From Sphaerochaeta halotolerans (GTDB lineage Bacteria > Spirochaetota > Spirochaetia > Sphaerochaetales > Sphaerochaetaceae): a stretch of DNA of 64,000 bases. Every line of letters begins with the position of its first letter. The first letter of the stretch is position 1. The position numbers and the translations under genes are program-made. Of this stretch, positions 3,540 to 14,913 are shown in pieces. Below the pieces are notes generated by a model. That model was not told the origin of the DNA and searched no databases. It saw only the letters and a program-made list of their open reading frames with translations. Location: the NCBI RefSeq assembly GCF_003429665.1, contig NZ_QUWK01000008.1, forward strand, positions 62,001 to 126,000, read 5' to 3'.

Positions 3540-4337
3540 ATGGAAAAACAGCTAGCTTTTGAAAAAAAATTCAATACACTGAAAGCAATGATCAGGGGGT
3601 CCCGTTCCCTGGTTGTCCTTACTGGTGCAGGTATCTCAACGCTCTCAGGAATACCTGACTTTCGTAGCAATACAGGTTTATATGCCAAACGGTGGAATGA
3701 GTATCGCGTAGAAGATATTTTAAGCATTGGTTTCTTCCATGCACATCCTGAACTTTTTTACGAATGGGCAAAAGATTTTTGGTATAAATTGGATTCCTAT
3801 CAACCGAATGTAGTACATACCAGTCTTGCCGTCTTGGAGAGGAAAGGATACGTTCAAGGTGTTTTTACGCAAAACATAGACATGTTGCACAAGAAAGCGG
3901 GAAGCCAAAAGTGTTATGAATTGCACGGGAGTGCAGAACATCATCATTGCACCAATTGCAACAGCTACTACTCTTATGAGTCGATTGCTCCTATCGTATT
4001 GAACGGGGAAGTCCCACGATGTAGGCAGTGTGGATCAATCATCAAACCGGATATCACCTTCTATGGTGAGAACCTTGACCCCCTGGTGCTTGCAAAGGCC
4101 TATGAAATGTTTAGTCATAGTGATCTTACGCTGGTCTTAGGATCATCATTATTGGTACAACCAGCTGCAAACCTTCCATACCATTCACTACAGAACAGCG
4201 CTCCTCTGGTAATTGTCAATAAGCAGGAAACTGGATATGATCGTTCCGCTATCTTACATTTCTCCGATCTACAGCAGTTTGGAAAAGCACTTGAAACATT
4301 TGCAGAATCACTTGAAGAGAGAAAATATCGGGTTTGA
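3540..4337 (+). CDS. NAD-dependent protein deacylase, sirtuin family
   Basis: This 265-residue cytoplasmic sirtuin removes acyl groups from lysines while consuming NAD+. The Rossmann motif LTGAGISTLSGIPDFRS lies near residues 28-44, FTQNIDMLHKKAG carries the NAD-contacting Gln-Asn-Ile-Asp, and ELHGSAEHHHC holds the catalytic histidine. A complete structural zinc site follows (CTNC ... CRQC), then KPDITFYGE and VLGSSLLVQPA. Length is normal for bacterial CobB/NpdA-type enzymes. It starts 11 bases after miaB, so probably belongs to the same transcript. Acyl specificity cannot be read from the sequence, so no cobB symbol is given. Confidence 0.93.
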   Translation: MEKQLAFEKKFNTLKAMIRGSRSLVVLTGAGISTLSGIPDFRSNTGLYAKRWNEYRVEDILSIGFFHAHPELFYEWAKDFWYKLDSYQPNVVHTSLAVLERKGYVQGVFTQNIDMLHKKAGSQKCYELHGSAEHHHCTNCNSYYSYESIAPIVLNGEVPRCRQCGSIIKPDITFYGENLDPLVLAKAYEMFSHSDLTLVLGSSLLVQPAANLPYHSLQNSAPLVIVNKQETGYDRSAILHFSDLQQFGKALETFAESLEERKYRV

Positions 4338-4374
4338 CTTTCACTCCCTTGCCTTTCACCGTACAATAGTAGGT

Positions 4375-5904
4375 ATGAAAGTACTTGTAGCTGATGATGA
4401 AAGAAGAGTGTGTGCACTCATTTGTGCTTTGATTGACTGGGAAGGATTATCCCTACAGAACGTTGGAACCGCATATGATGGTTTGGAAGCATTGGAAAAA
4501 ATCAAAGAGGAGAAACCAGACCTTGTTATTACAGATATTCGTATGCCCGGTCTTGATGGTTTAGAATTAATCAGCCAAGCTAAAGCACTCCAGCCAAATT
4601 TGCAATTCATTATCATTAGTGGCCATAAACAATTTGATTACGCTCAAAGTGCCATCAAATACGGAGTAGCCGAATACCTCTTGAAGCCAATTAAAAAGCA
4701 AGAATTGAACCAGACACTACAACGGATGAAGAAGTTATATACAGAGCAAACTTCATCAATGATCCTTCAAAAAAAAATAAAGGAAGACAGAGAGTATATA
4801 AAAGGAGCAAGTTTCTTATCGTTTTTAAAAAGCCTTGATTCTCAGATTCTTTCACCGTGGGTCACAGAAAATGTATTACTTCGTATCCTCGTAATTGGAA
4901 TACAGAGTCCTTCGAAAGTCCCTGTAATTCAACTTCTACAACAGAAAGTCCGTACTGCTATAGAAAAAGATTCGCTCAATGTCTGTGTTCAGGCATATCA
5001 GGGAGATTTGTATCTGCTCTATACTTATAAGCAAGAACAGAGGTCCCAGTTAATTTCACAAGCCGAAACCTTGGTTGAAATTCTCAAGGTGCAGGCGCAA
5101 ATCTTTCAAGATTTACGAAGCACTGTAGCCCTAGGTTTGGAGGTACAGCAACTGGAGGATCTTCCTTCATCTTTGCTATCAGGAAAACAGATCCTCTTAA
5201 GAAGATTGGTAGACGGGCATCATCGCATGTTCGAAGCAAATATGTTAGAAAAACCTGACTTAGAGCCATATCTGGATTTTATTGCTTCTTGGTTTGAACA
5301 GTGTTGCGCACAAGAAAGCCTAAACATGAGACAGTTCTGCCTAGATTTGTTTGATAAGCTTGAGGAAAACCGAATTTCACTCTATGCTACTATGGAAATT
5401 TTCCTACAGTCATACCGGCAAGCTTTGCATTTCGCCAAGGAACAGTGTGCACAGGAGAATGCAGTACAGAACAATGAGCAATTAATTAATGAGGCTGAAT
5501 CCCTTGAGGCTGCAAAAGAAGCGTACTGTAACGTGATGAATAGTCTCATATGTCAGTATCGCGAAGCTCGTGAAGTTCTGGTGAGCAAACCCATCAGGCT
5601 CTCTATAACCTATCTCCAAGAGCATTATAAGGATGAGATGCTTAGTCTGGAACTATTGAGTGAGCATGTCAATCTCAACAGTTCATATTTCAGTGCTCTC
5701 TTTAAAAAGAACATGGGTGTAGGCTTTAGCGACTATGTACTTACCTTAAGGATACAGGAGGCAAAGCGATTATTGGTTGAAACAAATAAAGGTATTGCAG
5801 AGATTGCTTTGGAAATCGGATATCATGATCCTAAACACTTCACCAAGATATTCAAGAAGAACTGTCAGATAAAACCCAATGAGTATAGGAAGCTCTATGG
5901 TTGA
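4375..5904 (+). CDS. Response regulator with AraC-type DNA-binding domain (YesN-like)
   Basis: This 509-residue protein has a receiver domain with acidic pocket D7/D8, phosphoacceptor D54 (VITDIRMPG) and conserved K104 (YLLKPI). A roughly 270-residue linker with coiled-coil character follows, then a C-terminal AraC double helix-turn-helix (LSLELLSEHVNLNSSYFSALFKKNMGVGF and IAEIALEIGYHDPKHFTKIFKK). ATG 4375 is chosen because the receiver fold begins there; the frame stays open upstream into the sirtuin gene. It partners with the kinase that follows and probably activates the sugar-transport genes downstream. The stop overlaps the kinase start by eight bases. Confidence 0.93.
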   Translation: MKVLVADDERRVCALICALIDWEGLSLQNVGTAYDGLEALEKIKEEKPDLVITDIRMPGLDGLELISQAKALQPNLQFIIISGHKQFDYAQSAIKYGVAEYLLKPIKKQELNQTLQRMKKLYTEQTSSMILQKKIKEDREYIKGASFLSFLKSLDSQILSPWVTENVLLRILVIGIQSPSKVPVIQLLQQKVRTAIEKDSLNVCVQAYQGDLYLLYTYKQEQRSQLISQAETLVEILKVQAQIFQDLRSTVALGLEVQQLEDLPSSLLSGKQILLRRLVDGHHRMFEANMLEKPDLEPYLDFIASWFEQCCAQESLNMRQFCLDLFDKLEENRISLYATMEIFLQSYRQALHFAKEQCAQENAVQNNEQLINEAESLEAAKEAYCNVMNSLICQYREAREVLVSKPIRLSITYLQEHYKDEMLSLELLSEHVNLNSSYFSALFKKNMGVGFSDYVLTLRIQEAKRLLVETNKGIAEIALEIGYHDPKHFTKIFKKNCQIKPNEYRKLYG

Positions 5905-6913
5905 AAAATTACAGTATATTGAGACACGTATACTCCTTATTGCCTTTTTTCTTGGCGTTCATATCTCACTCATGATTGTGGGTATGTTTCTTTATATGGA
6001 AGAACGCATACAATCGCCATTGTTTCTTCTATGGTCTCTTCTTGGACTTATATTTCTTATGGCAGTTAGCTATTGGTGGATTGTTCTGCCCTATAGAAGG
6101 ACAAAGCATATCTGGCAATTATTTGCTACTGGATATACCTTTCGATCAATTATCGATGAACAAACGCCTCTGGCAAAAGAGCTGGTGGCAGTCAATACGA
6201 CTATCCAGACAGTACTTAATACTGACCATCTGATGAATGCGAGCAAACGGCAGGCACAGTTTTTAGCGCTCCAAAATCAAATTAATCCACATTTTCTCTA
6301 TAATACCTTGGAAGGAATCCGTAGTGAGGCTCTTCTTGGTGGGTTAGAGTCAGTAGCCACTATGACTGAAGCACTATCCACATTCTTTCGCTATACCATA
6401 AGCAATGTTGAAAATTTGGTTACTCTTGGACAGGAACTGGAAAACACTAAGAACTACTTCTTTATACAACAGTTTCGGTTCGGAACGAGAATCAAACTTA
6501 CCATTTTGGTTGATGAAGAAGATACCATTGATATCTTGCAGTACCGCATACCCAAACTCGCCCTTCAGCCAATTGTAGAAAACAGCATTATTCATGGGCT
6601 TGAATGCAAGGTAGGAGAGGGACATTTACAGATACGCCTGGAACGTACTCAGTCTAGGCTCATTGTTACCGTCAGCGACGATGGAGTCGGCATGGAACTT
6701 CCTATGTTGGAAAAAATACAGAAAGAGTTGAATACCAGAAGCTTCGACTATGTGAAGCATGAAGATAAAGAAAGTGGGATTGCCCTGGTCAATGTCAATA
6801 ACAGAATCAAGTTACTGTTCGGTGAACAGTATGGTTTAACCGTTACCAGCCAGAAAGAAGTTGGAACTGATGTAATAATCTCCTTACCTGCCAGTAAACC
6901 GGAGGAAGCTTAA
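5897..6913 (+). CDS. Sensor histidine kinase of the His_kinase/HATPase (YesM-like) type, without an extracellular sensor domain
   Basis: The product has 338 residues, with ATG 5897 preceded by AGGAAG. Two transmembrane helices at about residues 11-33 and 41-66 are joined by only about seven residues, so almost nothing faces outward. There is a short cytoplasmic linker, then FLALQNQINPHFLYNTLEG with the phosphorylated His132, and an ATPase domain with N-box LALQPIVENSIIHG and G-box VSDDGVGM plus SGIALVNVNNRI. YesM relatives usually carry a large extracytoplasmic domain, and its absence here is notable. By architecture it resembles intramembrane-sensing kinases that take their signal from a transporter. 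It is followed three bases later by a degenerate ABC-ATPase homologue. Confidence 0.93.
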   Translation: MVEKLQYIETRILLIAFFLGVHISLMIVGMFLYMEERIQSPLFLLWSLLGLIFLMAVSYWWIVLPYRRTKHIWQLFATGYTFRSIIDEQTPLAKELVAVNTTIQTVLNTDHLMNASKRQAQFLALQNQINPHFLYNTLEGIRSEALLGGLESVATMTEALSTFFRYTISNVENLVTLGQELENTKNYFFIQQFRFGTRIKLTILVDEEDTIDILQYRIPKLALQPIVENSIIHGLECKVGEGHLQIRLERTQSRLIVTVSDDGVGMELPMLEKIQKELNTRSFDYVKHEDKESGIALVNVNNRIKLLFGEQYGLTVTSQKEVGTDVIISLPASKPEEA

Positions 6914-6915
6914 AA

Positions 6916-8373
6916 ATGAAGGAAGAGGTTTTTCGTCTTGAACAGGTTTCACTCCCTCCCTATCTTCATGATATCAACATACACCTATTCAAAGGAGAAA
7001 TTGTTGGACTTATTGGTTTGAACGCCTTGGGGATAGAACAGTTGCTAACAATATTCCAGAAGAATATCTCACTACATTACGGGCACGTTTATTGTAAGGA
7101 TGAATTGGTAAACGACTACCTATCAAGCAATCATAAACAGAACAATATCACAGTAATCGAACGTAAATCCATGCTTATTGATACTTTGAGTGTTGAAGAG
7201 AATCTGTTCATTCTTAAGAAAGGGTGTAAGCAGCATTTAATTAGATATTCATTGCTTTCTAACCAAATGCAACAACTTTTAGCTCCTTTGCATTTAAAAC
7301 TAGCAAATAAGACACTTGTAGCGGAGCTTACTTCTTTTGAAAAATTGGTCATCCAATTTATCAAAGCACAACTGAGCAGAAGTAGCATGGTTATTCTCAA
7401 AGACATCTCAACATTCGTCAGTGAGATTGACTTGGCAAAATTGAAACCTATCTTGGATTACTTTAGTGCAAATGGAATGACTTTCCTCTACGTTTGCAAC
7501 CATCATCAAGAAGCTTTCCATTTCTCAAATCGTTGTTATCTCATGCGAGAAGGAAAAATCATTAAACACCTATATCCTGATCAAATGAATGATACCATCA
7601 TTAGCCAATATTCATATGAATTCAAGGAATCTATTGAAGAAGGTAGTCGCCAAGACCAATATAGCAAGCCTCCACTATCATCCAGAGATTTGGTCTGCAG
7701 TAATCTATGGTATCATGATATCAAACAGCTTAATATTGAGTTGCATGCAGGGGAAACTGTTGTCCTGTTGGATAGTGAAAATATGATACTTGATCAACTG
7801 TTTGTGTTACTTAGTGGAGTAGATGTTGCAGATTCAGGAAGTTTGCTAATCCATGGAAAACGTCCATCACTAGCAGATCGATCAATTGCTCTAGTTCCTG
7901 AAAAACCAGATCAGAGCCTCATATTTCCTCAACTCTCAGTCATGGATAATCTGCTCTTCACGAGCGATCATAAGGTTCCACATCTTTGGCTTAATAGAAA
8001 ACGGAGAGCCGCTTTAGGATATGAACTTCAGAAGCGCTTTGGAAATAGGCTGACAGATAAAGTTCCTTCTGATTTTCCTCAATCATATAGACTTAGGCTA
8101 GTATATCAGAGAATACTCCTGCAAAAGCCTACTTTCCTTTGTGCTGTTCAACCATTTGCTTCAATCGATATGTACCAACGAATGGAACTAATTTCTACTT
8201 ATGATGTACTGAAACAGCGCGGAACTACAATTCTTATCCTCGCAGTTTCATTATCCGATACTCTACAAATAGCCGACCGATTATTACTTTGCAAAAATGG
8301 TCAAATTGAACGCCAGCTTTTACGTCATGAGTTTTCTCAATACAACGGCATTGTTGGTTCACGTCCTACATAA
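6916..8373 (+). CDS. Catalytically dead tandem ABC-ATPase homologue (RbsA-like pseudo-ATPase), putative signalling partner
   Basis: The 485-residue chain has the length and two-domain plan of sugar ABC ATPases (RbsA/MglA) and the same landmarks: FRLEQVSLPPYLHDINIHLFKGEIVGLIGL, later LHAGETVVLLD, and the SIALVPEKPDQSLIFPQLSVMDNLL that answers to the APEDRKKDG...LSVRENI of the true ATPase. Every catalytic motif is gone. Walker A reads GLNALGIEQ and LDSENMILD, the signature regions read LTSFEKL and FPQSYRL, and the Walker B regions read VILKDIST and LCAVQPFAS. The frame has no stops or frameshifts over 485 codons, so it is maintained, not a pseudogene. It starts three bases after the kinase and 74 bases precede the genuine ATPase. 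I infer a regulatory role, passing transporter state to the kinase. Confidence 0.85.
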   Translation: MKEEVFRLEQVSLPPYLHDINIHLFKGEIVGLIGLNALGIEQLLTIFQKNISLHYGHVYCKDELVNDYLSSNHKQNNITVIERKSMLIDTLSVEENLFILKKGCKQHLIRYSLLSNQMQQLLAPLHLKLANKTLVAELTSFEKLVIQFIKAQLSRSSMVILKDISTFVSEIDLAKLKPILDYFSANGMTFLYVCNHHQEAFHFSNRCYLMREGKIIKHLYPDQMNDTIISQYSYEFKESIEEGSRQDQYSKPPLSSRDLVCSNLWYHDIKQLNIELHAGETVVLLDSENMILDQLFVLLSGVDVADSGSLLIHGKRPSLADRSIALVPEKPDQSLIFPQLSVMDNLLFTSDHKVPHLWLNRKRRAALGYELQKRFGNRLTDKVPSDFPQSYRLRLVYQRILLQKPTFLCAVQPFASIDMYQRMELISTYDVLKQRGTTILILAVSLSDTLQIADRLLLCKNGQIERQLLRHEFSQYNGIVGSRPT

Positions 8374-8447
8374 TCTAAAGAACAACTACCTTTTTCAAAA
8401 GAAATGTCACCTATCGATCTAGTATATCACATGTAATAATTTAGGAC

Positions 8448-9971
8448 ATGGAAGATGAAGCATACATTGTAGAGATGGAACATATAGTAAAAACATTTCC
8501 TGGTGTTAGAGCACTGGATGATGTTCAGTTCCATCTGAAAGCCGGTCAGGTTATGGCATTGCTTGGTGAAAATGGGGCCGGTAAATCAACTTTAGCAAAG
8601 ATTCTCAGTGGTGTTTATACGAGAGATAGTGGAACTATGCGCTTATTTGGAAAAACCATAGAAGGTGATTTGAGTCCAAAACAGGCACAGGAAATGGGAG
8701 TATCTATCATTCATCAAGAATTAAATATGTGTTCACACCTAACCGTGTGTCAGAATATCTTTCTTGGGCACGAAAAAACAAAAGGAAGTTTACTTGATAA
8801 TAGAAGTATGCGGAAACAAGCTCAAGAAGTTCTCTCATCATTAGAAATTGACTTAGACCCAGATATACAGGTAGGTGATTTAGCTGTCTCAAAACAGCAA
8901 ATGGTCGAGATTGCTAAAGCACTGCAATCAAATGCAAAGGTTCTTATTATGGATGAACCGACTAGTGCATTGACTAGTGTAGAAATTGAACAGTTGTTTC
9001 ATTTGATCAGAGGACTACAATCTAAAGGGGTTGGTATTATCTATATTAGTCATCGTTTGGAAGAATTGCAACATATTGTAGATGTAGTGACAATAATGAG
9101 GGATGGAAAATATATTCTTGAGAAACCGTTTAAAGAACTCTCCATGAATCAAATAATTTCTAATATGGTAGGAAGAGAGATAAAGGAAAAGTTTCCACGA
9201 ATTCCCTCACACCGTGGGAAAAAGGTATTCAGCGTCCAAGACTTATGTGCTGGTCCTTTAGTGAAGCATATACATTTCGACGTTTATGCAGGAGAAATTC
9301 TCGGTGTAGCCGGCTTAATGGGTGCAGGGCGAACTGAGATGACAAGAGCTATCTTTGGAGCAGACCCAAAGGAAAAGGGAAGGATAATACTAGATGGGAA
9401 AGAAATTGCTATTTCATGTCCTGAAGATGCAATTCGTCATGGATTGGTTCTTGCTCCTGAGGACCGAAAAAAGGATGGCCTTTGTGTTAAACTATCAGTT
9501 CGTGAGAATATTGCCTTACCAAATTTAGATTTATTATGTTCAAAGGCTGGAATTGTAAATCGAAAGAAAGAAACAGAAATGGTAGAGAAAGCCATTAAGG
9601 ATTTAAAGATCAAGCTTTCGAGTACTGAAGCCAATGCTTCATCGCTGTCAGGAGGGAATCAACAGAAAGTAGTGGTAGGTAAATGGCTTGCAAGAAATAG
9701 TAAAGTAGTTATTTTCGACGAACCAACTCGAGGAATTGATGTTGCTGCAAAAGTTGAGATTTACCAATTAATGAACCAATTGAAAGAGTCAGGAATTGCA
9801 GTCATGTTTATTTCCAGTGAAATGCCGGAAATCCTAGGTTTCAGTGACAGGATCATGGTGATGTGCGATGGTCGAATCACTGGGGAATTAACACGAGAAG
9901 AGGCAACGCAGGAGAAAATACTGGAGCTTGCAACTCAATTTGAAAATAAATTTGAAACCCAGGTGGGGTGA
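8448..9971 (+). CDS. Sugar ABC transporter ATP-binding protein, RbsA/MglA family
   Basis: This 507-residue tandem nucleotide-binding protein energises import of a monosaccharide or related ligand (CUT2 class). The first half has an intact Walker A GENGAGKST, Walker B VLIMDEPTSAL and H-loop YISHRLEEL. The second half has the usual weakened Walker A (GLMGAGRTE), signature LSGGNQQKV, Walker B VVIFDEPTRGID and the APEDRKKDG insertion typical of the family. The start at 8448 follows an AGGAC site. It forms one unit with the permease and binding protein that follow. Substrate cannot be told from the sequence, so I give no symbol. Contrast with the motif-less homologue just upstream. Confidence 0.95.
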   Translation: MEDEAYIVEMEHIVKTFPGVRALDDVQFHLKAGQVMALLGENGAGKSTLAKILSGVYTRDSGTMRLFGKTIEGDLSPKQAQEMGVSIIHQELNMCSHLTVCQNIFLGHEKTKGSLLDNRSMRKQAQEVLSSLEIDLDPDIQVGDLAVSKQQMVEIAKALQSNAKVLIMDEPTSALTSVEIEQLFHLIRGLQSKGVGIIYISHRLEELQHIVDVVTIMRDGKYILEKPFKELSMNQIISNMVGREIKEKFPRIPSHRGKKVFSVQDLCAGPLVKHIHFDVYAGEILGVAGLMGAGRTEMTRAIFGADPKEKGRIILDGKEIAISCPEDAIRHGLVLAPEDRKKDGLCVKLSVRENIALPNLDLLCSKAGIVNRKKETEMVEKAIKDLKIKLSSTEANASSLSGGNQQKVVVGKWLARNSKVVIFDEPTRGIDVAAKVEIYQLMNQLKESGIAVMFISSEMPEILGFSDRIMVMCDGRITGELTREEATQEKILELATQFENKFETQVG

Positions 9972-9981
9972 GGAATATTAC

Positions 9982-10995
9982 ATGGTACTATTTATTGAAA
10001 AACCATTCAAAAGATTAATGAGAATTCGAGGAATCGGACAGGTACTGACAGTTACAGCAGGGCTTGTGGTCTTAAGCATTATTTTTGGGATTATGAATCC
10101 TATTTTCTTTTCCTCAAGAAATGTTGCAAACTTACTTCGTCAAATTGCTCCTATTTTGTTGATTGGAATCGGACAATCCTATGTCCTCATTACAGGTAAC
10201 ATCGACTTGTCTATTGGGTCGGTTGTAGGCATGAGTACAATGATTAGTGCAACCTTGATGACTAAGGGTATTAATCCTTGGGTTTCTGTCCTAATTACTA
10301 TAATAGCATGTCTTGGTGTAGGATTGTCTAATGGTTTGTTGGTCTCGTTTGCAAAACTTCCTCCCTTTATTGCGACGCTGGGGACCATGACCATTGCAAG
10401 AGGTATCGCACAAATAGCAAATAACAATTACAACACTGATTCCATAGGTGAAGCTGCCCAAGGATTGAGAGATTTCTTTTATTACGGAAAGACCTTTGGG
10501 CTCTATAATACTATCTGGATTGCTCTGGTTTTATGGGCAATTTTCAATTTTATTCTTACACGCACAAAGACGGGAAGACATATTTATGCCATTGGCTCCA
10601 ATGCCGAGGCGGCTAGGCTTAGCGGTGTAAACTTAGTTTCAACAACTACAAAGGCATATCTTGTCTCTGCTTTTGTTTCCTGTGTAGTAGGACTTATCAC
10701 TACTGCAACTAGTGGAATGGGAACAATGGATGCAGGAAATTCATATGAATTGTATGCTGTAGCTGCTTCAGTAATCGGAGGGGTATCTACTCTTGGTGGT
10801 CAAGGCATGCTCTTTGGAACCATAATTGGTGCGTCAATTTGGGGTGTTTTACAGAATGGTCTTCAGTTTGCAGGAGCACCAGTGGCAATAAGGAATATTG
10901 TTATTGGAATTATCGTCGTAATCTCAGTCTTGCTCGATGTAATTGTCCGGTCGGGTAGGGGAGCCAGGAAAAAACGGATAGAATCAACAACATGA
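9982..10995 (+). CDS. Sugar ABC transporter permease, RbsC-like
   Basis: The product is a 337-residue inner-membrane permease with about eight to ten predicted helices. Typical CUT2 permease motifs are visible: GQSYVLITGNIDLSIGSVVGMSTM near residues 62-85, LPPFIATLGTMTIARGIA, YAIGSNAEAARLSGVN (the coupling loop that contacts the ATPase) and AASVIGGVSTLGGQGMLFGTIIGA. ATG 9982 is preceded by GTGAGGA, and a longer frame reaching into the ATPase gene is unlikely to be used. It lies ten bases after the ATPase stop, in the same operon as the kinase, regulator and binding protein. Confidence 0.95.
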   Translation: MVLFIEKPFKRLMRIRGIGQVLTVTAGLVVLSIIFGIMNPIFFSSRNVANLLRQIAPILLIGIGQSYVLITGNIDLSIGSVVGMSTMISATLMTKGINPWVSVLITIIACLGVGLSNGLLVSFAKLPPFIATLGTMTIARGIAQIANNNYNTDSIGEAAQGLRDFFYYGKTFGLYNTIWIALVLWAIFNFILTRTKTGRHIYAIGSNAEAARLSGVNLVSTTTKAYLVSAFVSCVVGLITTATSGMGTMDAGNSYELYAVAASVIGGVSTLGGQGMLFGTIIGASIWGVLQNGLQFAGAPVAIRNIVIGIIVVISVLLDVIVRSGRGARKKRIESTT

Positions 10996-11038: not shown

Positions 11039-11950
11039 ATGAAGAAATTGAGTATGGTACTGCTGGTACTGCTAATTGCAGGCACAATGTTCGCACAGGG
11101 GACAAAAGAGAATGCATCTGCATATAATATCTACTTGATCACGATGGATCAGATGGACCAACACTGGGTGAATGTAGACAAAGGAGCACAGAAGGCTGCT
11201 GAAGAGTTGGGAAATGTTAACTATAAGTGGTTGGCCCCTGATGTCAAAGACGATGCAAAACAAATCGAAAGCATCAACAATGCAGTTGCTGGTGGAGCGG
11301 ATGCAATTCTCCTTGCCGCAAATGGACCCAATGCTGTAACAGCTGCATTAAAAGAAGCAGCCGACGCTGGGGTCACAATTGTCTATGTAGACTCTGCAGC
11401 AAATTTCCCTGCAGTACAGACATTGGCAACAGACAACACTGCAGCTGGAACTACTGCTGCTAATGTAATGATTGCAGCACTGAAAGAGAATGGTGTTACC
11501 TCAGGAAAGATTGGCATTATTTCTGTCAATAGCGCTACTGCGAGCACTGTTGCGCGTGAGGCAGGTTTCCGGAAAGCTTTTGAAGGAACCTCATTTAACA
11601 TTCTAGAGACACAGTATTGTAATGGTGATGCTGCCGTTTCCAAGGATATGAGTGCAAATTTCATCACTCAAGGGGTTGTTGGACTCTTTGGTGCAAATGA
11701 AGGATCAACAGTTGGAGTAGGTAATGCTATTGCTGAAGCTGGGACCGGCGTCATTGGCGTTGGGTTCGATAAGAGTGATATGATTTTATCACTGATAAAG
11801 AATGGATATATTCTTGCTACTATGGCACAAAATCCTGATGTCATGGGATATGAAGGGGTTAAAACTGCTTATCGTGCTTTGAATGGTGAGGTCATTTCCC
11901 CAGAATATGTAGACACAGGTGTTTCAGTATTAACAAAAGCAAATTTGTAG
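11039..11950 (+). CDS. Periplasmic sugar-binding protein, RbsB-like (type I PBP fold)
   Basis: This 303-residue exported substrate-binding protein begins MKKLSMVLLVLLIAGTMFAQG, a signal peptide with a cleavage site at FAQ-G and no lipobox cysteine, so it should be soluble in the periplasm. The mature chain has the Peripla_BP_4 pattern: YLITMDQMDQHWVNVDKGAQKAAEEL, AVAGGADAILLAANGPNAV, ATDNTAAGTTAANVM, GIISVNSATASTVAREAGFRKAF, TGVIGVGFDKSD and ILATMAQNPDVMGYEGVKTA. An AAAAGGAG ribosome site precedes ATG 11039. It is the last gene of the transport operon and is followed by a strong terminator. The ligand is probably a sugar, but could be autoinducer-2 or a related small molecule. Confidence 0.95.
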   Translation: MKKLSMVLLVLLIAGTMFAQGTKENASAYNIYLITMDQMDQHWVNVDKGAQKAAEELGNVNYKWLAPDVKDDAKQIESINNAVAGGADAILLAANGPNAVTAALKEAADAGVTIVYVDSAANFPAVQTLATDNTAAGTTAANVMIAALKENGVTSGKIGIISVNSATASTVAREAGFRKAFEGTSFNILETQYCNGDAAVSKDMSANFITQGVVGLFGANEGSTVGVGNAIAEAGTGVIGVGFDKSDMILSLIKNGYILATMAQNPDVMGYEGVKTAYRALNGEVISPEYVDTGVSVLTKANL

Positions 11951-11974
11951 AAAATCAAGGAAAAGTAAAATCGC

Positions 11975-12008
11975 GCAAGGAGGACTTAATGTCCTCCTTG
12001 CCTTCTTT
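11975..12008 (+). terminator. Intrinsic terminator of the sugar-transport operon
   Basis: A perfect 11-bp stem (GCAAGGAGGAC pairing with GTCCTCCTTGC) with a five-base loop is followed by CTTCTTT. It sits 24 bases after the binding-protein stop. Confidence 0.85.
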
Positions 12009-12026
12009 AAGAATTGTGAGTATAGT
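11999..12026 (+). promoter_or_regulatory. Probable promoter of the tmRNA gene
   Basis: TATAGT at 12021-12026 lies 16 bases after TTGCCT at 11999-12004, which overlaps the 3' arm of the upstream terminator. The predicted start near 12033 gives a leader of about 22 bases carrying a 16-base palindrome (12038-12053), presumably removed by RNase P. The -35 match is weak. Confidence 0.4.
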
Positions 12027-12054
12027 TTAGATACCTCAAGGGATTAATCCCTTT

Positions 12055-12428
12055 GGGGGTGTTTCGGTTTCGACTGGCGGAAGATCAGGCCAGGGGCTGC
12101 AAGCGGAGCGCCAACTCCTAAAACTAGCAAAACATTTAACTGCCAAAAAAGAAGACGAAGTCTCCTTCGAAGCAGAATACGCCCTCGCTGCGTAATAGCA
12201 CGATGACGTACAGGCCCGTCAGCTGCCGCTCTTAAGCGTCGGATACCTGTAAAAGTAAGAGCTTACCCAACCCAGTGCCTATGGGGGGAGGGGACACTAA
12301 AGTAGGCTACAAAGAGTGGACGTTTTGCCGGTGAACCTGCCGCACTTTGGAACTATTGATCACCAGCTAAGCTTGTAGACGTCACTGGGTGGCACGTTAG
12401 GACGGGGGTTCGAATCCCCCCACCTCCA
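12055..12428 (+). ncRNA. ssrA: Transfer-messenger RNA (tmRNA)
   Basis: This 374-base RNA rescues stalled ribosomes and tags their incomplete proteins. The tRNA-like ends are clear: GGGGGTG at 12055 pairs with CACCTCC at 12421-12427, the D-like region starts TTTCGGTTTCGACTGG, and the T arm is GGGGG-TTCGAAT-CCCCC. The discriminator is A12428 and CCA is not encoded. The tag frame runs from a GCC resume codon at 12142 to TAA at 12193, preceded by TTAACT, and encodes AKKEDEVSFEAEYALAA, ending in the conserved YALAA degradation signal. At 17 residues the tag is long compared with the ten encoded in E. coli. SmpB, its partner, is encoded at 24375-24845. Confidence 0.97.
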
Positions 12429-12436
12429 GAAACACA

Positions 12437-12465
12437 GCCCGTCTTCTTCGGAAGGCGGGTTTTTT
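12437..12465 (+). terminator. Intrinsic terminator of ssrA
   Basis: The stem CCCGTCTTC / GAAGGCGGG (one G-U pair) has a TTCG tetraloop and is followed directly by six T residues, eight bases after the tmRNA end. Confidence 0.9.
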
Positions 12466-12634
12466 GATGTCTCATGGGATACCACGGCACTACCTATATA
12501 AGAATACGAATACATTCCAGATGTCAAAAAAATGGTTTTCAGGAAGGAGTGCCACAAAAAGCCTCTATACTGTTTCCATGCCGACGACTGTAGTGACATA
12601 ACCCCTCTGCTAAAAGCTCCTCTCTGAGCTAGCA

Positions 12635-12849
12635 CTACCAGTAAACAGACAGGGTGTAGGATCTGCCGCTATACATCCACTTCTTTTTCAGAATCTGGTT
12701 TTCCATCTTGGCATTCTGGAGTTCCTGGCAGGTCTCCTCAATCTTCCGCTGGGCTTCGGCAAGCTCTTTCTTCAGCTGCCTTACTTCCTTGGAAAAGCCT
12801 CCAGCGCTACTTCTTTCTTGAAAGAATCTGTGAATGTTTTCTTTCCCAT
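12635..12849 (-). pseudogene. Remnant of an insertion-sequence OrfA (IS3-type) transposase gene
   Basis: From ATG 12849, preceded by an excellent AAGGAGGAG site, the minus strand encodes MGKKTFTDSFKKEVALEA and then stops after FPRK. The next frame continues as SKEVRQLKKELAEAQRKIEE and QELQNAKMENQILKK, a leucine-zipper segment of the kind that ends OrfA proteins. The middle, where the helix-turn-helix should be, is missing, so an out-of-frame deletion has joined the two ends. No OrfB or terminal repeats are seen nearby. Between this gene's start and the DUF819 gene (12850-13415) I see no convincing coding sequence, only AT-rich DNA and a 16-base palindrome. Confidence 0.6.
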
Positions 12850-13174
12850 CTTGTTTGCTCCTCCTTATAAGGTAGCAAATATTCCTTAATTTTATAATCT
12901 CCTGTCCAAAACTACGTCTAAGTACAATCTGTTTTCCTACCATTTGACTAAAAAGTACTATATGATAAGAACACTGCATGATGCTCAATGACTTTTATTT
13001 CAACCACACAAGTTGAGATTATTACATTGCACTTGCATTTTGTATTACAATTTTCTATACGTTCTCATATGTGAATAAACAGACTGATAATAAAGATGGA
13101 ATAGTAATTGTGAACAACAAAAGGAAAAAAAGAGCCTATATAAAGGATGCGGTGTACATAGAGAATCGGGGAAA

Positions 13175-13190
13175 TGCTTTTGCAAAAGCA
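13175..13190. repeat. 16-base perfect palindrome upstream of the DUF819 transporter
   Basis: TGCTTTTGCAAAAGCA is its own reverse complement and lies about 225 bases before the transporter start in DNA without a gene. It could be an operator for an unlinked regulator; no regulator gene is adjacent. Confidence 0.3.
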
Positions 13191-13415
13191 ATGTCGGGTT
13201 TATGGTTTCCTATGAAAATCTTTGCTTATATCGCAGAATCTCTGTGAGCCTGAAGAAGGCAACCCTTTTCGAATGTGGTTTGGTACGGCAAAGGGGTATC
13301 AGAGTAGAAAAAGATCTAAATCTGGAACTGATGCTACATTGGATCTAGTTTATATCATCTCAGTACAAGAAAATGAATCCTCCAATTTCCTGAAATGCAA
13401 ATAAGGAGAAAATGC

Positions 13416-14582
13416 ATGGTTTTAAACGTTGTAGCCGCCGTCGCGTTTGTTCTTTTTCCGGCTCTGGTCATTTTGCTCAGTTCTAGATTCGAAATTCTTC
13501 AGAAAATGGGTCCGGTCCTTATCTGCTACCTCGGTGGCATGATAGTAGGGAATATCGGAGTTTTACCTGCAGGCTTTGCCGCCGTGCAATCGACGATGCA
13601 GGACGTTAGCGTCGCGCTTGCGCTGCCGCTTCTTTTGTTCTCTCTCGACGTAAAAAGATGGCTCAGGATATCTGGATCGGGTCTGCTATGCATGCTTCTT
13701 GCAGTCATAGCTATCGTCCTGACGACGTTCATACTTCAGTTCACAATTGCATCTGGGCTGCCGGACGGCTGGAAGCTTGGGGGCATGTCGGTAGCTGTCT
13801 ACGCTGGAGGCACCCCGAATATCGCTGCTATAAAGACTGCGTTGGGCGTGGACAATGACACCTATATCCTCTTCAATACGTACGATATGATGTTCTCGCT
13901 CATCTATATCTTTTTTATGGTCTCCGTTGCGAGACCGTTTTTCCAGAAAGTGTTCAAACTCAGGCCATACGAATCCGTCGTGAACAGTGATGACGCCCAG
14001 GCATCGGAAATGGGAGACGATTCACTCGAAACATATTCCAAAATGTTTGAACCCAAGATTGTGAAAGGCTTGTTGCTCGCGTTTTTGCTCTCGGCCGTCA
14101 TATTGGCCCTGTCGTTTCTTATAGGCGGATTCTTCCCCGCTGTTTTCGGCACAGCGGCCACGATACTGCTTATTACGTCCTTCGGCATTGCGTCCTCGTT
14201 TATAAAGCCCGTGCGTAGGCTACGATATACCTTCCCTTTCGGTATGTACATCATCTATGTGTTCTGCTTCACCGTCGCATCTATGACGAGATTCGACGTG
14301 CTGATACACATTAACTGGACCATACTGCTGTACGTTGTGATATCAATCTTCGGTAGCATGCTCATTCACGCCCTGCTCTGCAGGATGTTTCATATCGACT
14401 CCGATACGATGATAATCACGTCGGTATCGGCCGTATGCTCACCACCATTCGTACCTGTTGTGGTAAGCAGACTCAAAAACCGCGACATCTTAATAAGCGG
14501 GCTTGTGACGGGCATCATCGGCTACACTATCGGGAACTATCTCGGAATCGGATTGGCCATGATTTTCAGGTCGTTCGGATGA
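13416..14582 (+). CDS. DUF819-family integral membrane transporter, probably horizontally acquired
   Basis: The product is a 388-residue polytopic membrane protein with about ten helices. GPVLICYLGGMIVGNIG, ALALPLLLFSLDVKRWLRISG, AVYAGGTPNIAAIKTALGVDN and TSVSAVCSPPFVPVVVSRLKN are hallmarks of DUF819 (YjcL-like) proteins, whose substrate is not established. ATG 13416 is chosen because AAGGAG lies seven bases before it; an in-frame ATG at 13395 has no such site. Codons with CG (gtcgcg, tcg, acg, gcg) are far more frequent than in neighbouring genes. Insertion-sequence debris lies upstream and a gene scrap downstream, so recent transfer is likely. Confidence 0.85.
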   Translation: MVLNVVAAVAFVLFPALVILLSSRFEILQKMGPVLICYLGGMIVGNIGVLPAGFAAVQSTMQDVSVALALPLLLFSLDVKRWLRISGSGLLCMLLAVIAIVLTTFILQFTIASGLPDGWKLGGMSVAVYAGGTPNIAAIKTALGVDNDTYILFNTYDMMFSLIYIFFMVSVARPFFQKVFKLRPYESVVNSDDAQASEMGDDSLETYSKMFEPKIVKGLLLAFLLSAVILALSFLIGGFFPAVFGTAATILLITSFGIASSFIKPVRRLRYTFPFGMYIIYVFCFTVASMTRFDVLIHINWTILLYVVISIFGSMLIHALLCRMFHIDSDTMIITSVSAVCSPPFVPVVVSRLKNRDILISGLVTGIIGYTIGNYLGIGLAMIFRSFG

Positions 14583-14601
14583 TGGGGTTTATGGTAATTG
14601 A

Positions 14602-14730
14602 AGGGAAACAAAAAGGCAGAATACAAATGCATCCATACATAAAAAAGGCAGGTCTTACGAAGAACTCAACAAATTCGGCGAGGACAATTCCCTCCACAAA
14701 GAGTACACCGAAGTATTCTCGACGGAGTAA
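14602..14730 (+). pseudogene. Possible 3' fragment of a lost gene
   Basis: An open frame without a credible start ends at TAA 14730 and encodes ...GRSYEELNKFGEDNSLHKEY... with the C/G-ending codons also seen in the DUF819 gene just upstream. It looks like the C-terminal end of a protein whose body was deleted, perhaps the next gene in the donor operon. I cannot identify it. The rest of 14583-14913 holds the hairpin and promoter listed separately. Confidence 0.3.
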
Positions 14731-14806
14731 TGACCTCGGTAAAAGCTACAGCAAGGTGTGTATGCCGAAGACACCTGGGTCAATAGAATCCCATACTGCA
14801 TAGAAG

Positions 14807-14849
14807 CAACATATTGAAAGGTATAGAGCTGTAAGTACCTTATATGTTG
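14807..14849. repeat. Hairpin-forming inverted repeat before sbcD
   Basis: CAACATAT pairs with ATATGTTG and, after a three-base bulge, AAGGTA pairs with TACCTT around a 12-base loop. No T-run follows, so it is not a typical terminator. It directly abuts the -35 box of the sbcD promoter. Confidence 0.4.
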
Positions 14850-14878
14850 TTGAGAATCATCTCCCAACAGCCTATACT
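14850..14878 (+). promoter_or_regulatory. Sigma-70 promoter of sbcDC
   Basis: TTGAGA at 14850-14855 and TATACT at 14873-14878 are 17 bases apart, placing the transcript start near 14885 and giving a leader of about 29 bases before sbcD. Confidence 0.6.
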
Positions 14879-14913
14879 GTGATAACAAGTCCCACACTAC
14901 CACAGGAGCTTTG

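Follow-up and report, generated by a model that had tools for sequence, protein, structure and literature searches.

The window analyzed here, a stretch of 64,000 nucleotides from Sphaerochaeta halotolerans, carries a gene, referred to as ABCx, whose product is almost certainly a pseudo-ATPase kept by selection. This protein has probably been recruited as the third part of a two-component system, where it would couple the state of a transporter to a sensor-less kinase through contacts that we infer. Pseudo-enzymes are well known among kinases. The reading proposed here, if true, would extend the pseudo-enzyme idea to ABC NBDs and would answer what a sensor-less kinase senses.

ABCx is the third gene of an ordered locus, in which a response regulator (RR) and a sensor histidine kinase (HK) precede it and the sugar importer genes rbsACB follow.

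4375-5904, + strand: response regulator of the YesN type, with a receiver and an AraC-type HTH (inferred start codon; Pfam)
5897-6913, + strand: YesM-type sensor histidine kinase, 338 aa (inferred start codon; Pfam)
6916-8373, + strand: ABCx, tandem RbsA-type ABC ATPase homologue, 485 aa (motif alignment, Pfam, AlphaFold2)
8448-9971, + strand: RbsA, the sugar importer's intact tandem ABC ATPase (Pfam, NCBIfam, motif alignment)
9982-10995, + strand: RbsC-type permease (inferred start codon; Pfam, NCBIfam)
11039-11950, + strand: RbsB-type sugar-binding protein (Pfam, NCBIfam)

The RR-HK-ABCx order is kept in the window and in 15 further loci, with rbsACB next wherever the contig continues. HK and ABCx overlap by 4 nt in nine of the 11 loci measured and by 1 nt in another; in the window, ABCx starts 2 nt past the HK stop. 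The permease matches PF02653 across its whole length, and RbsB is similar to binding proteins for monosaccharides, including those of the ribose type. One Pleomorphochaeta locus (L021) has an unrelated gene between RR and HK (3983-5287, - strand), which looks HipA-type kinase-like by eye.

The ABCx frame runs from ATG at 6916 to TAA at 8371-8373 over 485 codons with no internal stop, in agreement with a preliminary description of this DNA that had reported neither stop nor frameshift. The same description named six strings as replacements of ATP-site motifs, and alignment with RbsA found all six at the corresponding motif places. Walker A, signature, and Walker B are lost in both halves of the protein.

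7015-7041, + strand: former Walker A-1 of ABCx, GLNALGIEQ (GENGAGKST in RbsA; alignment)
7390-7413, + strand: former Walker B-1 of ABCx, VILKDIST (LIMDEPTS in RbsA; alignment)
8137-8163, + strand: former Walker B-2 of ABCx, LCAVQPFAS (VIFDEPTRG in RbsA; alignment)

In the same alignment, LTSFEKL occupies the signature-1 place, LDSENMILD stands at Walker A-2 against GLMGAGRTE in RbsA, and FPQSYRL stands at signature-2 against LSGGNQQ. In all 15 aligned family members, which span at least three spirochaete families, the P-loop Lys is hydrophobic (I, V, M, F, or L at Walker A-1), the P-loop Ser (a Mg ligand) has been replaced by Asp or Glu, and Gln (Q412) takes the place of the catalytic Glu in the Walker B of half 2. 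The Walker B-1 Asp has become K, R, G, or F across the family. Since identical motif losses occur in every orthologue, they are not attributable to chance. The broader claim that every active-site motif had gone holds for both halves with two reservations: the first P-loop retains one or two glycines, and the H-loop region of NBD1 has turned into a nearly invariant N-H-H (CNHHQEAF) rather than being erased. The functional neighbor is itself asymmetric, because the second P-loop of RbsA is non-canonical (GAGRTE) and has no Lys.

Despite these losses, both domains of ABCx can be aligned end to end with the neighboring RbsA at 20% identity. The length and domain order described earlier are borne out by this alignment, whereas the spacing is not fully matched, as the stretch from Q-loop to signature in half 2 is shorter in ABCx. 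The PF00005 (ABC_tran) model detects half 1 only (E 6e-11), and four of the 15 aligned proteins escape it at a threshold of 1e-3. Among NCBIfam models, the top matches are those for xylose, LPS-export, arabinose, and ribose-type ATPases, the highest score being 106 bits where the cut-off is 699. As most of these models describe CUT2 sugar ATPases, ABCx clearly descends from an RbsA-like protein. ABCx combines RbsA homology and a tandem NBD fold with the loss of the Walker A, the Walker B Asp and catalytic Glu, and the LSGGQ-type signature of a catalytic RbsA-type ATPase.

Selection on the gene is evident from close Sphaerochaeta orthologues, among which dN/dS is 0.02-0.06 (NG86) or 0.03-0.10 (YN00). 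By NG86 in the same comparison, RbsA gives a similar 0-0.05 and HK 0.10-0.29, placing ABCx below both HK and RR. These ratios derive from few changes, so that single values are rough, yet all are far below 1; divergent pairs are saturated and were left out. The orthologue frames are all open, one of them ending at a contig end, and identities to the window protein range from 76-56% in Sphaerochaeta through 44% in Pleomorphochaeta and 39% in a Treponema MAG to 37-26% in other spirochaete genera. AlphaFold2, run on the 15-sequence alignment, predicts a full tandem NBD (pLDDT 86, pTM 0.76), and the best fold match of this model is ATP-bound DppD (Z 26.7, rmsd 4.0, 449 residues), the other matches likewise being tandem NBDs. 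No RbsA chain appears among the fold matches listed, which is not evidence of a different fold. Low dN/dS, unbroken orthologues, and an intact predicted fold together lend good support to the suggestion in the preliminary description that selection maintains a non-catalytic role. The tie to the sensor-less kinase, which points to the probable nature of that role, does not figure in that description.

Within Spirochaetota, ABCx is uncommon yet widely scattered, being present in 11 of 100 family genomes and in eight of the 393 genomes of the phylum sample; these counts refer to Spirochaetota genomes. Among the matches listed from a tblastn search of plasmids with ABCx, there were only ordinary ABC ATPases for sugars, about 24% identical, and no ABCx; a viral collection gave no match. 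The open-license literature yielded no account of a protein like ABCx, a source in which absence proves little.

The kinase encoded next to ABCx carries two hydrophobic segments within residues 1-65, separated by a short loop, and an H-box at residue 130. It has two TM segments, no extracytoplasmic sensor, and intact catalytic boxes, and Pfam detects no sensor domain in it. Two TM helices, a short linker, and no other sensor domain are the features of intramembrane-sensing kinases, and the pairing of a His_kinase/HATPase_c kinase with a receiver-AraC HTH regulator is that of YesN/YesM systems. Usual YesM kinases have a large outer sensor, whereas the ABCx-linked kinase has only the short loop. 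This difference is reflected in length: ABCx-linked kinases measure 327-350 aa across loci, the four remaining PF06580 kinases of the source genome have frames of 530-610 aa, and Bacillota YesM kinases on plasmids, of the ordinary type, reach about 585-629 aa (five records). Having only two TM helices and lacking an outer sensor domain, the kinase would have to receive its input from a partner.

The distribution of ABCx follows this kinase. Close homologues of the short HK occur in nine of the 393 Spirochaetota genomes, comprising all eight with ABCx and one more (G445) that has a half-degenerate RbsA homologue in the ABCx position. RbsB was found in 17 of the 393. The rbsACB loci that are devoid of ABCx have neither such a kinase nor a YesN-type regulator nearby (one, L077, is uninformative because of a contig end), and in several of them a GlcNAc-2-epimerase-type, PfkB, ROK, or SIS gene accompanies a LacI regulator. 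Hence, the importer can dispense with ABCx when it lies outside the two-component system. In one locus, L078 of G308, RbsA falls in two frames (4488-6053, - strand), either a pseudogene or an assembly error, and adjoins regulator and epimerase-like genes.

Evolutionary rates agree with this distribution. Between-locus distances of six genes in 10 taxa gave a partial rate correlation of 0.69 for HK and ABCx with the other genes controlled (permutation p 0.0015, jackknife 0.64-0.75), against -0.07 for ABCx and RbsC and 0.26 for ABCx and RbsA; no tested pair other than HK-ABCx exceeded 0.26. From the indirect evidence of co-occurrence, gene overlap, and shared rates, we consider it likely that ABCx is a dedicated partner of the kinase.

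In an unrooted tree, ABCx forms one clade with 100/99 support, and another 100/99 branch cuts off the true RbsA proteins. The half-degenerate homologues (G445; second copies in G441 and G447) fall on the ABCx side, between the ABCx clade and that branch, although long branches leave their exact place unsure. They keep Walker A-1 intact and have lost the other motifs. At L083 (7713-9185), L084 (7710-9179), and L085 (5755-7191, - strand), such homologues follow short YesM-type kinases; signature, Walker B, and half 2 are lost, and an extra RbsC-type gene and then a full RbsA-RbsC importer come next. These cousins resemble ABCx in lying between a short YesM-type kinase and an RbsA-type importer, and differ from it in the retained Walker A-1 and the second permease gene that follows. 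They may serve as natural intermediates for tracing the origin of the ABCx role.

Conservation within ABCx is selective. Only 27 of the 114 columns conserved in RbsA are kept, mainly structural glycines, leucines, and the post-Q-loop motif, and nearly all ATP-contacting columns are lost. A further 29 positions are conserved specifically in ABCx, including NHH195-197, D286, P331, and Q412/F414. The post-Q-loop motif, which lies at the permease interface in ABC importers, is present in both halves.

7186-7209, + strand: post-Q-loop motif of half 1, LSVEENLF, with V93, N96, and F98 as in RbsA (VxxNxF; conservation)
7936-7950, + strand: post-Q-loop motif of half 2, SVMDN, with S341 and N345 as in RbsA (SxxxN; conservation)

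Between ABCx and rbsA, a gap of 49-154 nt across loci (8374-8447 in the window) holds a direct repeat.

8387-8416, + strand: putative RR operator, direct repeat TACCTTTTT-N12-CACCTATCG (conservation ahead of rbsA across ABCx loci)

The repeat approximates CACCTTTTC with a 21-bp period, its copies lie at 8387-8395 and 8408-8416, and it is alignable across ABCx loci. Its mean score before rbsA in these loci is 12.55, against 9.77 (sd 0.28) for shuffled sequences, a value that is partly circular since the consensus was derived from the scored loci, whereas the controls are not. Before rbsA in loci devoid of ABCx, the repeat is weak or absent (9.67 against 8.99, sd 0.29), and upstream of RR and rbsB in ABCx loci the scores show no excess over shuffles. 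The source genome contains one further near-match. AraC-type activators use a 21-bp direct repeat adjoining the promoter, and the repeat before rbsA is a probable, though putative, site of the AraC-type regulator. Its position between ABCx and rbsA suggests that RR-HK-ABCx make up a regulatory unit and that rbsACB form a second unit under its control.

These elements can be assembled into a working model, in which an RbsA-type tandem ATPase would have joined a YesN/YesM system as a third component. The simplest candidate for the kinase partner would be ABCx, which is predicted to be cytosolic, is co-made with the kinase, appears docking-competent by motif, and is dead as an ATPase. It would bind the kinase and monitor the state of the RbsABC importer from a docking site on RbsC or on the RbsC-RbsA complex, relying on its retained RbsA fold and on the post-Q-loop motifs with which importers dock on permease coupling helices. 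No part in ATP turnover is expected of it; being catalytically dead, ABCx could remain bound to the permease or the complex as a reporter of its state instead of driving it. Sugar uptake would then be reported to the kinase, and the phosphorylated regulator would activate rbsACB from the 21-bp repeat. We infer the contacts with the kinase and with RbsC, the direction of the signal, and the function of the operator. A conserved fold and conserved motifs do not in themselves identify the bound partner. The step at which ABCx reads out the permease is proposed only tentatively. Its specific form, in which a tandem pseudo-NBD sits on a CUT2 permease, replacing the live RbsA or beside it, and passes conformation to a sensor-less YesM-type kinase with occupancy as the signal, is somewhat less than an even bet. 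If true, signal reading by a pseudo-NBD would represent a new class of transporter-coupled signaling, and the ABCx system would offer a compact model of how bacteria read out transporter activity.

The arrangement is a variant of a known habit, namely the recruitment of transporter parts for sensing. It would work in the manner of Bce modules and XylFII-LytS systems without belonging to either. In Bce modules, an ABC transporter partners a sensor-less kinase and its conformational cycling is sensed (PMC10314905). BceAB-BceS-BceR systems share with the ABCx locus a two-TM sensor-less kinase with input from an adjoining ABC transporter, as well as transporter genes activated by the regulator (PMC10314905, PMC3023708). 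However, they combine an active ATPase with a permease that has a large outer loop, and act in peptide resistance, whereas the ABCx system adds a separate dead ATPase without ATPase motifs to a YesM-type kinase and a sugar importer with an RbsC-type permease. XylFII-LytS-YesN and CuaD-CuaS-CuaR, as described in PMC10384115 and the papers it cites, likewise encode a spare sugar-importer part together with the two-component system by which the importer is induced; in these, the kinase partner is a spare extracytoplasmic binding protein that acts on an outer sensor domain. In the ABCx system, by contrast, the recruited part is a cytoplasmic ATPase with an NBD fold, the kinase has no outer domain, and RbsB is encoded by a separate downstream gene. 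RbsA, MglA, and XylG (CUT2) resemble ABCx in fold, tandem domain order, length, and phylogenetic origin, but retain the ATP-site motifs, and ABCx has an intact RbsA beside it. The kinase and regulator share their His_kinase, HATPase_c, and AraC HTH domains with YesM/YesN systems in general. Agathobacter rectalis (L089) offers a parallel link between a transporter part and a kinase: a substrate-binding-protein gene (8666-9721) stands in the position of ABCx and has a 4-nt overlap with the gene of a YesM-type kinase.

Other explanations share part of this evidence. ABCx could sense a ligand in the cytoplasm: the sites that once held nucleotide would have been rebuilt for a sugar, a sugar phosphate, or another metabolite, and ABCx would control the kinase directly, leaving the permease untouched. 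The new conserved residues in the former ATP sites (N195-H196-H197, D286, P331, Q412-P413-F414) exceed what relaxed loss would leave, and co-occurrence and rate co-variation independently favor a partnership with the kinase. Yet both permease-docking motifs, needless for a pure sensor, are kept, and we regard this explanation as unlikely. A similarly low probability is assigned to a transport role, in which ABCx would be a subunit or brake that limits or shapes import, either by assembling with RbsA or by contending with it for RbsC, with no direct signaling. Its fixed place within the whole operon would also fit such a role. ABCx shares an operon with rbsACB in every locus, retains the docking motifs, and is an RbsA paralogue by descent. 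Against this, close relatives of the same importer exist without ABCx, its rate tracks the kinase rather than RbsC and RbsA only weakly, and the conserved repeat, which seems to mark the start of the transporter unit, comes only after the ABCx gene.

Nucleotide binding at the remodeled site could in principle occur, and ABCx might act as a slow nucleotide-dependent switch. The remaining P-loop glycines, the H-loop-like NHH, and the perfect Walker A-1 of the L083-L085 cousins are compatible with this scenario, but every ABCx has lost the P-loop Lys and Ser/Thr, all 15 carry an acidic residue at the Ser position, and both signature motifs are lost, making it very improbable. The view that ABCx is a recent pseudogene, a decaying RbsA duplicate with a frame open by accident, could appeal to its low identity to the neighboring RbsA, the loss of all motifs, and fast divergence between genera. 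It can be dismissed with near certainty, as the dN/dS values and a conserved family rule it out: frames are intact across families, ABCx-specific residues are conserved, and the proteins form one clade.

The stretch after rbsB (11951-14910) is longer than at the corresponding locus of Sphaerochaeta sp. S2 (L019). It includes a short reverse-strand ORF (12635-12988), which may be an IS-type remnant, and the gene of a 395-aa membrane protein (13395-14582). At the genome scale, G000 (2.9 Mb) encodes about 20 tandem RbsA-type ATPase frames; among the six paralogues examined, LSGG is present in all and Walker A in five, the sixth being read from a late start.
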